This document shows positions 54,917 through 58,890 of a DNA stretch of 64,000 nucleotides, piece after piece. The translations under genes were made by a program, and so were the position numbers. Position 1 is the stretch's first letter, and the number at the start of each line of letters is the position of its first letter. Origin of the DNA: a virus; the IMG/VR virus record IMGVR_UViG_3300013094_000027, positions 28,019 to 92,018 of that record; one strand, 5' to 3'. Under the pieces are notes generated by a model. That model had not been told where the DNA came from. It did not search any database and was given only the letters and a program-made list of their open reading frames with translations.

Positions 54917-55096
54917 ATGTCTTTTGGTTGTGAGTGACTGTTAAACTATTAAATGCGTTTGTTACATATGCAAAGTTTAAAGACTTAGCATATGCTTTAG
55001 CTTGGTTTATATGTGGAACTCTCATTTTTGATAATAACACTCTATAAGAGTGATGTGAATATAATTTATCTTTTAACACATAAAAAAACACAAATC

Positions 55097-56404
55097 ATGT
55101 TTAAAAACAATATTGTAGTGCCGGGTGGCATTAAAAAACCTAAATTTACTCCCAAAAACATAATTTCTCTTAAAGATAATGAAGTTTTTGTTTTTGGATC
55201 AAATCTTGCAGGAATGCATGGTGCAGGTGCTGCAAAAACAGCATTACAATGGGGTGCACAAATGAAAAAAGGTATTGGTCATTTTGGTCAAACATATGCA
55301 CTCCCTACTAAAGATAAAAATATTAAAACATTATCTTTAAATGAAATTAAAGTTTATGTTGATCAATTTATACAGTATGTAAAAGAAAATCAATACAAAC
55401 ATTTTCTTTTAACAGAAATTGGTTGTGGTTTAGCTGGTCTTACTTATGAACAAGTCGCACCTTTGTTTGTAAACATTCTTACATGTTCTAATATTTCTAT
55501 TCCAGAACCTTTTTGGGATATTATTAAACCTGTAATAAAAGGATATAAAGTTACAGCCCCTGATGGAAGTTGTCGTAACTATTTGTTTGAAGTAGGAAAA
55601 GAATATCAATATGACGGTCAAATAAAAATATGCAATAGTGGGTTTCATTTTTGTATAAAACCTTCTCATTGTTTTTTTTATTATAATTTTGATTCAAATA
55701 ATAAAGTATTTGAAGTTGAAAGTATAGGTGAGTATCAAACACATGATAAAGATAGCAAAATTTGTACAGGAAATCTTCGTATTGTTAGACAGATAGAGTG
55801 GTATGAAGTGTTGTCTATTTCAAATGAAGGAAATAATAATACTGGATATTCTAACACAGGTGATAATAACATAGGTAACTGGAACACAGGTTACAGTAAC
55901 ACAGGTAACTGCAACACAGGTAACAGGAACACAGGTGACAGTAACACAGGTAACAGGAACACAGGTAACAGTAACACAGGTAACAGTAACACAGGTGACA
56001 GTAACACAGGTGACAGTAACACAGGTTACAGTAACAACGGAAATAGACAATCTGGAGCTTTTTGTACTGGTGAACCTGCTTTTACATTATTTAATAAACC
56101 TGCTAAAACTACTTGTAATGATTTTTTAAATAGCAAAGTTTGGAATATTATTTGTAATCATGTTGATACTAAATTATGGGTTTCTGAAAGTTTAATGACT
56201 GATGAAGAAAAAAAGATTCATTATGGTTATAAAACTTGTGGAGGGTTTTATAGAGATATACCTTATAAACAAGCTTTTACAAATATGTGGCACAATCTTT
56301 CTAAACAAGACAAAAAAGAATTTACTTCTTTAGAAAATTTTGATGCAAAAATATTTGAAGAAATAACAGGTGTAGATGTTACAAAAGAAAAAGATCTTTT
56401 GTAA
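55097..56404 (+). CDS. Fusion of macro-like domain, DUF7666-like domain and pentapeptide-type repeats
   Basis: 435 residues in three parts. Residues ~25-150 form a macro-like (ADP-ribose-binding type) domain: VFVFGSNLAGMHGAGAA, FGQTYALPTKD, LTEIGCGLAG. Residues ~155-245 (GYKVTAPDGSCRNYLFEVGK, KICNSGFHFC, FYYNFDS, VFEVESIGEY) resemble DUF7666. Residues ~255-320 are N-T-G-x-(S/N/R) repeats like MPTR/pentapeptide type 2, encoded by ~14 tandem 15-base units. The C terminus is helical. The start at 55,097 has a CACAAATC leader. Nucleotide or ADP-ribose handling is a guess. Confidence 0.7.
   Translation: MFKNNIVVPGGIKKPKFTPKNIISLKDNEVFVFGSNLAGMHGAGAAKTALQWGAQMKKGIGHFGQTYALPTKDKNIKTLSLNEIKVYVDQFIQYVKENQYKHFLLTEIGCGLAGLTYEQVAPLFVNILTCSNISIPEPFWDIIKPVIKGYKVTAPDGSCRNYLFEVGKEYQYDGQIKICNSGFHFCIKPSHCFFYYNFDSNNKVFEVESIGEYQTHDKDSKICTGNLRIVRQIEWYEVLSISNEGNNNTGYSNTGDNNIGNWNTGYSNTGNCNTGNRNTGDSNTGNRNTGNSNTGNSNTGDSNTGDSNTGYSNNGNRQSGAFCTGEPAFTLFNKPAKTTCNDFLNSKVWNIICNHVDTKLWVSESLMTDEEKKIHYGYKTCGGFYRDIPYKQAFTNMWHNLSKQDKKEFTSLENFDAKIFEEITGVDVTKEKDLL
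55831..56046 (+). repeat. 15-base tandem repeat array (AACACAGGTRACAGK)
   Basis: About fourteen copies in frame with the protein repeats; the array is open in other frames on both strands, too. Copies at the edges have diverged (AATACTGGATATTCT), and the middle is nearly uniform, which suggests recent expansion by slippage. Confidence 0.9.
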
Positions 56405-56437: not shown

Positions 56438-56510
56438 AACCAAGTAGCTTTAATTGGTAGAGCCTCGGATTGTATCGGAGAGGTTAGAAGTTCGAGTCTT
56501 CTCTTGGTTT
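56438..56510 (+). tRNA. tRNA-Thr (TGT) candidate
   Basis: A 73-base cloverleaf: acceptor AACCAAG/CTTGGTT (7 of 7 pairs), D stem GCTT/GAGC, anticodon stem CTCGG/CGGAG with one G-G mismatch and loop ATTGTAT, variable loop AGGTT, and T arm AGAAG-TTCGAGT-CTTCT (5 of 5). The anticodon by position is TGT (Thr, codon ACA). Position 26 appears missing. A shift of the loop would read GTA (Tyr), which fits less. CCA is not encoded. Confidence 0.8.
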
Positions 56511-56564
56511 CTCTTTAAAATGGTTAATTAATTTGTTTTTGTAAACTTTAAAATTTAAAAATTT

Positions 56565-56708
56565 ATGGAATCAAACGCTTATGAAAGAGGTTATGAAGCT
56601 TATAAAGCTGGAGCCTCTATTGATGACAATCCTTACCGTTACTCCACTGAAGAATATCAAGAGTGGATGTGGGGATATTGTGATGCCTTAACTGAATCAG
56701 ATAATTAA
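56565..56708 (+). CDS. Small RMF-like protein
   Basis: 47 residues: ESNAYERGYEAYKAGASIDD, NPYRYSTEEYQEWMWGYCDA. The pattern Y-x-x-G-Y-x-A-x-x-x-G...NPY...W-x-x-G-x-x-D-A is that of ribosome modulation factor-like small proteins, which are frequent in phages. It lies just after the tRNA, and a terminator follows. Confidence 0.65.
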   Translation: MESNAYERGYEAYKAGASIDDNPYRYSTEEYQEWMWGYCDALTESDN

Positions 56709-57493: not shown

Positions 57494-57781
57494 ATGAAAC
57501 ATGCAATAGTAGCCGGATTAAGTTATAAGGCAATGAATAACCTCCGATGGAAATTGATAGATGATGGGTACACTACAACTCTTGCGCCCTGTAAAGATTT
57601 CTTTGAACTCAATGAGCTTACAGTACATCAATGTCAACTATTAGACATACAAAGACTATGTGCTATCATGGATGAAGGAGTAATGGAATTACATCTCATA
57701 TCAGATTGGCAACAATCAAAAGAAGCCACTCTTTTAAGAGATATTGCTATTAGAGTTGGAATATTAGTTGTTTATTATTAA
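57494..57781 (+). CDS. DUF4406-like protein (nucleoside deoxyribosyltransferase-type fold)
   Basis: 95 residues. The C-terminal HLISDWQQSKEATLLRDIAIRVGI corresponds to the phage DUF4406 pattern (L-P-x-W-Q-x-S-x-G-A...E...A...G). The N terminus is altered: VAGLSYKAMNNLRWKLIDDG replaces the usual YIAGP. The family is related to nucleoside 2-deoxyribosyltransferases. The tmRNA promoter overlaps its end. Confidence 0.55.
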   Translation: MKHAIVAGLSYKAMNNLRWKLIDDGYTTTLAPCKDFFELNELTVHQCQLLDIQRLCAIMDEGVMELHLISDWQQSKEATLLRDIAIRVGILVVYY

Positions 57782-57796: not shown

Positions 57797-58157
57797 GGGC
57801 CCATAAGGTTTTGACGGCAAAATGTAAGTATGATTGGCGTGTAAGGACAAGGATATCGTCCTTTAAATAAAGGTATTCAACAATAAATGTAGCTAAAACA
57901 GCAACACAAAGACAAGAAGAAGGTGCACGTATTATCAATATGTGCTTTGCTAATGCACCAATTGCTATAGCAGCCTAATTTCAAAAGACATATTCAAGTC
58001 TTTAAAAGTGAATAGTGGATAATACAGAACAGCTATACACAATGGCCGATAAGCAGTTCAAAACGCATACCTGAAGACAGCAGGAATAAAATTAGTCATG
58101 GTAGTAACTCCCAAGTTAGACATAATTGAGACCTGAGTTCGACTCTCAGCAGGTCCA
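57797..58157 (+). ncRNA. ssrA: Transfer-messenger RNA (tmRNA)
   Basis: The 5' part has GGGCCC..AAGGTTTTGACGG, matching the conserved tmRNA start (GG-x-TTxGACGG). The 3' part carries a perfect T arm (CTGAG, TTCGACT, CTCAG) and GGTCC pairing with the 5' GGGCC. A PK1-like hairpin (AAGGAC/GTCCTT) precedes the resume codon GCT at 57,892. The tag frame of 28 codons begins AKTATQRQEE and ends NAPIAIAA, then TAA at 57,976. Further hairpins (AAAGAC/GTCTTT) follow. The acceptor stem appears imperfect in its inner two pairs. It would rescue stalled ribosomes and tag nascent proteins. Confidence 0.88.
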
Positions 58158-58192: not shown

Positions 58193-58230
58193 ATACCCTA
58201 CATTGAGTAAGAACAGTGTAGGGTATTTTC
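58193..58230 (+). terminator. Terminator after the tmRNA
   Basis: ATACCCTACA pairs with TGTAGGGTAT (10 bp) around a 14-base loop and is followed by TTTC. It ends the tmRNA transcript. Confidence 0.87.
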
Positions 58231-58257: not shown

Positions 58258-58299
58258 TTTCTCTTTATTTCTTTAACAATTAAAAACAAATCAAAAATT

Positions 58300-58890
58300 A
58301 TGGTAACACAATATAACAAAGAATACTTCCTTACTCATAGAGGTTGTTATTCAGCAGAAAAAATGGCAGGATTATGTGATAATAATCCACATTCCAATAT
58401 TCAGGAATTTCTGAATTGGGACATATCAATAAAAGATAAGTTCTATTTTGTAAGAAATTATACAGAACTAACAATAAAACAAAAACAGTTATTTGCACTA
58501 ATGTGTGCTAAAGTATCATTGGAGATATATGAAAATAAATATCCTAATGATAAAAGAGTACGTGAATGTATAGAAGCAACTGAGCAGTTTTTGGATGGAA
58601 AAATAACAAAAGAAGATTTATTAATAAAAAGAAATGCTGCTGCTGATGCTGCTGCTGCTGCTTATGCTGCTGCTTATGCTGCTGCTGCTGATGCTGCTGC
58701 TGCTTATGCTGCTGCTGATGCTGCTGTTTATGCTGCTGCTTATGCTGCTGATGCTGATGCTGCTGTTTATGCTGCTGCTTATGCTGCTGATGCTGCTGCT
58801 TATGCTGCTGATGCTGCTACTTATGCTCCTAAATATATAAATAACCTTCTCAATGCATTAAAAGAATTTTGTAAAGTTCATAAAAATTAA
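58300..58890 (+). CDS. Ala-rich repeat protein of the putative Imm-5-like family
   Basis: 196 residues. The first ~110 are a normal domain (TELTIKQKQLFALMCAKVSL, RVRECIEATEQFLDGKITKE). Then follow ~65 residues of A, D and Y (AAADAAAYAA) forming a helix-repeat stretch, and a short end (KYINNLLNALKEFCKVHKN). The phrase RxCIEATxxFLDGxI before Ala/Tyr repeats is typical of a widespread phage and bacterial family annotated as putative immunity protein. The start at 58,300 follows AATCAAAAATT. Confidence 0.68.
   Translation: MVTQYNKEYFLTHRGCYSAEKMAGLCDNNPHSNIQEFLNWDISIKDKFYFVRNYTELTIKQKQLFALMCAKVSLEIYENKYPNDKRVRECIEATEQFLDGKITKEDLLIKRNAAADAAAAAYAAAYAAAADAAAAYAAADAAVYAAAYAADADAAVYAAAYAADAAAYAADAATYAPKYINNLLNALKEFCKVHKN
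58637..58820 (+). repeat. GCT-triplet repeat tract
   Basis: Almost uninterrupted GCT codons broken by GAT and TAT encode the Ala-rich part. A CAG/CTG-type triplet repeat of this length is prone to slippage, and length change in threes would keep the frame. Confidence 0.92.

Follow-up and report, generated by a model that had tools for sequence, protein, structure and literature searches.

Phage-borne tmRNA genes have reportedly been described in mycobacteriophage Bxz1 and its relatives, in Bacillus phage G, in Streptomyces phage Starbow and its relatives and in the OM43 phage Melnitz. As the initial annotation of the DNA studied here had stated, they were known beforehand, being present in 402 of 18,146 phage genomes (PMC9004378), and a tmRNA database holds 79 unique phage sequences and gives 10 amino acids as the commonest tag length (PMC11915505). 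Among bacteria, the ssrA tag of the Mollicute Mesoplasma florum is long and is read by Lon (PMC9382460, PMC8138137). For crAss-like phages none had been described according to that annotation, and our search agrees with it: no paper on a Crassvirales tmRNA was found, subscription papers and supplements lying outside the search, and in the open texts on Crassvirales, supplements excluded, the term was met only in the names and descriptions of annotation software. Nor was a paper on tags of the type described below found in the open literature, again without supplements; phage tmRNAs as such are known, and it is the tag family that is likely new.

The window, that is, the whole stretch of DNA analysed, makes up the final 64 kb of an IMG/VR viral record 92,018 bp in length. 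The phage is crAss-like, as its major capsid protein matches the Crass_capsid profile (PF23898, E 3e-24), so that the placing of a one-piece phage tmRNA in this group stands; its TerL is phrog_6681, and its portal relatives are 43-81% identical. The ssrA-like gene, supported by its sequence, its relatives and the covariation in 23 members, covers 361 nt on the plus strand, as do all parts of it given below, and runs from G1 at 57797 to the discriminator A73 at 58157, the 3' CCA not being encoded; the initial annotation had thus placed a real gene correctly to the base. The 5' strand of the acceptor stem, GGGCCCA (57797-57803), forms five of seven pairs with the 3' strand CAGGUCC, which together with A73 occupies 58150-58157 and was placed by relatives and covariation. 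The pairs are G1-C72, G2-C71, G3-U70, C4-G69 and C5-G68, and the two mismatches, C6/A67 and A7/C66, are peculiar to the window among members whose 3' end can be read. G3-U70 is the alanine identity element and implies alanylation. A D-loop-like motif, GGUUUUGACGG (57807-57817), has counterparts of the form GG..UUUGAC or UUUGAUC in relatives and is not followed by a canonical anticodon arm, and ARAGORN finds no tRNA at the site. The T arm, CUGAG-UUCGACU-CUCAG (58133-58149), has a perfect 5-bp stem and a UUCGACU loop.

Between these two ends of the molecule, the pseudoknot PK1 (57843-57878) consists of a 6-bp stem 1, AAGGAC/GUCCUU (57843-57848 with 57858-57863), and a 7-bp stem 2, GGAUAUC/GGUAUUC (57851-57857 with 57872-57878), and ends 10-13 nt before the resume codon, GUA or GCU. 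The tag frame, (V)AKTATQRQEEGARIINMCFANAPIAIAA followed by UAA (57889-57978, stop at 57976-57978), is open, lacks a start codon and ends in APIAIAA-UAA. The frame first proposed, with the resume codon GCT at 57892-57894, was correct, and its start is perhaps one codon late: in the relatives L154 and L217 ARAGORN puts the start of the tag at GTA, and by homology with them the window tag may begin at GTA 57889-57891 and have 29 codons. Downstream of the tag, PK2 (AAAGAC/GUCUUU with UAUUCA/UGAAUA, 57984-58014) was proposed by inspection, and PK3, PK4 and P2 are not established. PK1 alone is matched in 81 of 3000 dinucleotide shuffles (p ~0.03) and PK2 in 114 of 3000 (p ~0.04), and because these values are no lower the window by itself is suggestive and relatives are needed.

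The gene lies in a region of small genes. A 95-aa ORF without family match (57494-57781, plus strand) ends 15 nt before it and is probably a co-transcribed neighbour, and a terminator-like hairpin (58193-58226, plus strand) stands 36 nt downstream, where one such hairpin was seen against 0.8 expected by chance. Directly after the tmRNA, the ORF at 58297-58890 carries a long alanine-rich ADAAAAYAAA repeat, and its Pfam match to Imm5 probably reflects composition. Further upstream, the ORF at 55085-56404 combines DUF7666, pentapeptide repeats and an N-terminal match to phosphatase-like phage families, the N-terminal stretch being possibly a macrodomain. A 47-aa ORF (56565-56708) adjoining the tRNA-Thr gene (56438-56511), 1.1 kb upstream of the tmRNA, matches ribosome modulation factor above the cut-off (PF04957, 35.1 bits); among 22 phage records it was present in the window phage only, and its membership in a conserved tmRNA module was consequently rejected.

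Standard finders overlook the gene. In the window ARAGORN reports tRNA-Thr only, and the Rfam search returns no tmRNA at the gathering score; below it, RF00023 matches only the T arm, at 16 bits where the cut-off is 47, and this match was rejected as proof, since bacterial genomes contain tRNAs with similar scores. The check originally proposed, by these same two programs, would thus have spoken against the gene, and in the light of the relatives both outcomes are false negatives. The cut-off is a threshold of detection and not a biological feature, and the relative L128, for comparison, scores 75.9. Also among members of the family with their 5' end present, 31 in number, the tag reading of ARAGORN is correct in no more than 14. 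As the program fails on over half of these tmRNAs, by misreading or missing them, phage tmRNAs are undercounted, those of Crassvirales included.

The decisive evidence for the tmRNA is comparative. RF00023 was searched for in 43 records, of which 41 were viral and two were bacterial genomes with portal genes of crAss-like type; apart from the bacterial tmRNAs, the search returned full-length ones in two crAss-like phages. One of these, L128, was found by the RNA model and not by its tag, which ARAGORN reads as DHQAIGAKIINMAFANARVAVAA; its GAKIINMAFANARVAVAA stands against GARIINMCFANAPIAIAA in the window, and the two tags have GA[KR]IINM[AC]FANA..[VI]A[VI]AA in common. When a 26-base degenerate pattern for IINMxFANA was run over IMG/VR, all 12 stretches returned lay within tmRNAs, and a looser pattern, GAxIINMxF, added 21 loci. 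A scan in which either isoleucine could be replaced by other hydrophobic residues gave 29 stretches, 27 of them tmRNAs already known and all with Ile-Ile; the other two (L227 and L228) are unrelated and not tmRNAs. Together, these three pattern scans and the Rfam search added 33 phage loci with a tag of the same type. The RNA has diverged so far that blastn with the window tmRNA as query found no match among phages. Among the matches to a structural pattern first applied to viral contigs, true tmRNAs were limited to L002 and L010, with a tag of another kind (class II, below). In the two closest crAss relatives, 71-81% identical in TerL and portal, no tmRNA was detectable, and the tmRNA is therefore an accessory gene.

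In the 23 distinct tRNA-like domains of the family, 98.6% of acceptor and T-stem cells are paired, covariation scores 0.707, the shuffles giving 0.144 (0 of 500 reaching the observed value), and G1-C72, G2-C71 and G3-U70 are invariant in all 23; the material consists of metagenomic contigs, whose related sequences are not independent. In L152 both PK1 stems, read by hand, show compensatory changes (AAGCAC/GUGCUU and GGAUAUA/UGUAUUC), and the same locus has an expanded PK1 region, with about 72 nt inserted between the strands; an automatic search for PK1 across the members was too strict and missed most. The T loop varies as well, reading GGCAGUG without the UUCGA motif in L151 and being interrupted in L201, L207, L208, L214, L219 and L225. 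Rfam identifies the insert of L201 (1158-1385) as a group I intron (98 bits), and by eye those of the other five resemble it. Such inserts are already known from bacterial tmRNAs, and here they are among the reasons why finders miss these phage tmRNAs.

The window tag, (V)AKTATQRQEE-GARIINMCFAN-APIAIAA, has 28-29 residues, against 9-10 in nearly all Bacteroidota tags read, and the earlier remark on its unusual length is borne out. Its core, RQExGAxIINM[A/C]FAN (QEEGARIINMCFAN, 57913-57954), is common to the 33 other phage loci, most members conforming to [SA]RQE[EI]GAxIINM[AC]FAN[AV]..A[VLMI]AA. The end AIAA had been taken as a possible sign of diversion from ClpXP, a reading that the relatives do not support, for their tags end mostly in A-[V/L/M/I]-A-A, including AVAA, AMAA and, in several, plain ALAA; AIAA is not special, and the end keeps the usual character of a predicted degradation signal. 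It is the conserved core upstream of this end that is the odd part of the tag. As the scans had fixed part of the motif, selection was assessed on codons outside it, where pN/pS among 29 distinct members is 0.42, a descriptive value as the members are related; likewise descriptively, the ratio is 0.23 in the two codons after the Phe, 0.31 in the last four codons and 0.71 in the four upstream codons. The window and L159, a locus from the same phage as L128 and hence a pair independent of the scans, differ with pS 0.69 and pN 0.19 over 18 codons. Synonymous change dominates, and therefore the tag peptide is conserved. An amphipathic helix in the core was rejected, scoring not above shuffled tags, and a search for the tag among solved structures gave no match.

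Long tags extend beyond this family. Scanning a single viral collection independently of the tag, by a motif of the 3' domain, gave 99 stretches, and tags were examined in the 80 loci returned. Three were cut at a contig end, two were unreadable, and in the remaining 75 the tag is long without exception; the prevailing view of phage tmRNAs has been that of rare oddities whose tags are ordinary. By their cores, 11 of the 75 belong to class I, the type of the window, 62 to class II (...STMTFDDLMAFVGADYALAA, among L229-L297, on dozens of contigs of up to 181 kb) and two to class III (...EGEAILASIF...), a further class III tag occurring in a crAss-like phage (G028/L129). The RNA 3' domains are common to the three classes and the cores are different. 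Several phage lineages might thus use a few discrete long tag types as phage-specific degradation or targeting signals, reprogramming what becomes of unfinished proteins during infection by way of a factor, of host or phage origin, that recognises the core, a generalisation that we put forward tentatively, as it is rather more doubtful than probable.

Class I is found in records with the Crass capsid (n = 8: the window, G023, G061, G062, G063, G461, G467 and G473) and in records with the T4-like Gp23 (n = 3: G057, G060 and G470), and because of this double occurrence the gene either passed from one lineage to another or persisted in phages that share hosts. In Bacteroidota, the presumed host phylum, assigned from the crAss-like affiliation alone, the core is absent from all 396 genomes sampled. 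An ordinary tmRNA of their own is present in 60 of 61 genomes, and 29 of 30 tags read by ARAGORN have 9-10 aa, the other being an evident miscall; the comparison with host tags suggested at the outset therefore sets the phage tag apart. In 50,697 INPHARED phage records, tblastn with class I and II tags gave no match, a positive control of similar length returning 87 records. As otherwise unrelated phages have the core in common and none of the Bacteroidota sampled has it, a tag of their own for incomplete proteins appears to have evolved among phages. SmpB was not found in 22 phage records, many of them partial, and for that reason the phage tmRNA most likely uses that of the host; that the SmpB of a phage tmRNA comes from the host is established tmRNA biology.

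What the gene does can be proposed from its sequence. We consider it probable that this is a phage-owned, one-piece tmRNA performing trans-translation with host factors and adding a two-part tag that contains a probable recognition core. Working with host SmpB, alanyl-tRNA synthetase and ribosomes, it would rescue, during infection, ribosomes stalled on broken or stop-less mRNAs, arising for example from host defence or phage nucleases, and would add 28-29 residues to the unfinished protein; the freeing of ribosomes in infection, which the initial annotation had suggested, is plausible. The first part of the tag would be the phage-specific core RQExGAxIINMxFAN, maintained by selection that acts on the peptide, and the second the C-terminal A-x-A-A, of the kind read by ClpXP and related proteases, as it resembles the LAA-type end that ClpXP recognises (PMC9382460). 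The core is most likely a putative docking site for a protease or adaptor, which would alter the manner or the place of degradation of the tagged proteins. What is inferred here comprises the charging of the RNA, its activity in tagging, the timing and the part played by the core. Against this explanation stand the two acceptor mismatches particular to the window, the Rfam score far below the cut-off, the lack of an established P2, PK3 and PK4, and the two closest crAss relatives without a detectable tmRNA.

Other explanations share parts of this evidence. An RNA that titrates SmpB or blocks host trans-translation as a decoy, like that of mycobacteriophage DS6A, would fit the imperfect acceptor stem of the window and has parallels in the DS6A-type RNA, which inhibits tmRNA (PMC4131195, PMC11915505), and in a crAss-like relative with a 78-nt RNA that consists of a tRNA-like domain only (L130). 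A decoy needs no tag, however, and here the frame, the stop and A-x-A-A are conserved with mostly synonymous change, so that this reading is less likely, and we hold it to be unlikely overall. The RNA of L130 (1501-1578; record G043, 87,949 bp, with a crAss-like portal) is itself a mini-tmRNA with G3-U70 and no tag, which matches RF00023 with 34.8 bits (E 5e-13), heads a tRNA array and resembles the inhibitory DS6A RNA. The acceptor mismatches, together with the failure of ARAGORN and Rfam, might instead indicate a decaying, non-functional copy in the window phage alone, but its tag frame is open with core and end conserved, its T arm is perfect, PK1 and the proposed PK2 are intact and a terminator-like hairpin is present; we regard decay as very unlikely.

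It is also conceivable that the core is conserved for the RNA, through structure or ribosome docking, and not for the peptide, since in the predicted fold of the window a strong hairpin (GCACGUAUU/AAUAUGUGC) overlaps it. Yet third codon positions vary, most of the other members lack the hairpin, and the three classes join common 3' domains to different cores, all of which makes this reading highly improbable. To the chance capture or transduction of a host tmRNA without any phage-specific role we give no more credence: phages are known to integrate at ssrA, and pieces of the gene occur in prophages (PMC9004378), but the core is missing from the Bacteroidota sampled, whose tags are almost all 9-10 aa, and the same long tag recurs across crAss-like and T4-like phages with diverged RNA, so that capture is already disfavoured. 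The occurrence of the class I tag in crAss-like and T4-like phages, and not in the sampled genomes of the presumed host phylum, makes the old question of why phages carry a rescue RNA a testable one.

Compared with known systems, the window gene has the layout of the bacterial one-piece tmRNA (RF00023; Bacteroidota tags such as GENNYALAA and ANDYSYAMAA), with a tRNA-like domain bearing G3-U70, PK1, a tag frame, a candidate pseudoknot downstream and an A-x-A-A tag end, and the encoded CCA is absent also from an inspected host gene (L126). It differs from that RNA in being phage-borne, in falling below the Rfam cut-off and in its tag of 28-29 residues with a conserved core in place of 9-10. A phage-borne ssrA is common to the window and to Bxz1, phage G, Starbow and Melnitz; Starbow and its relatives, however, have a short 13-aa tag (ANSNVASAYALAA), and the RNA of Melnitz is in two pieces. 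The RNA of DS6A is likewise phage-encoded, but it is a tRNA-like domain without a tag, whereas the window has a conserved tag of 28-29 codons. For the role that we propose for the core, the nearest precedent is the tag of M. florum, long and suited to a different protease; that tag, however, ends in NYAFA and is encoded on a bacterial chromosome, whereas the phage tags keep A-x-A-A.
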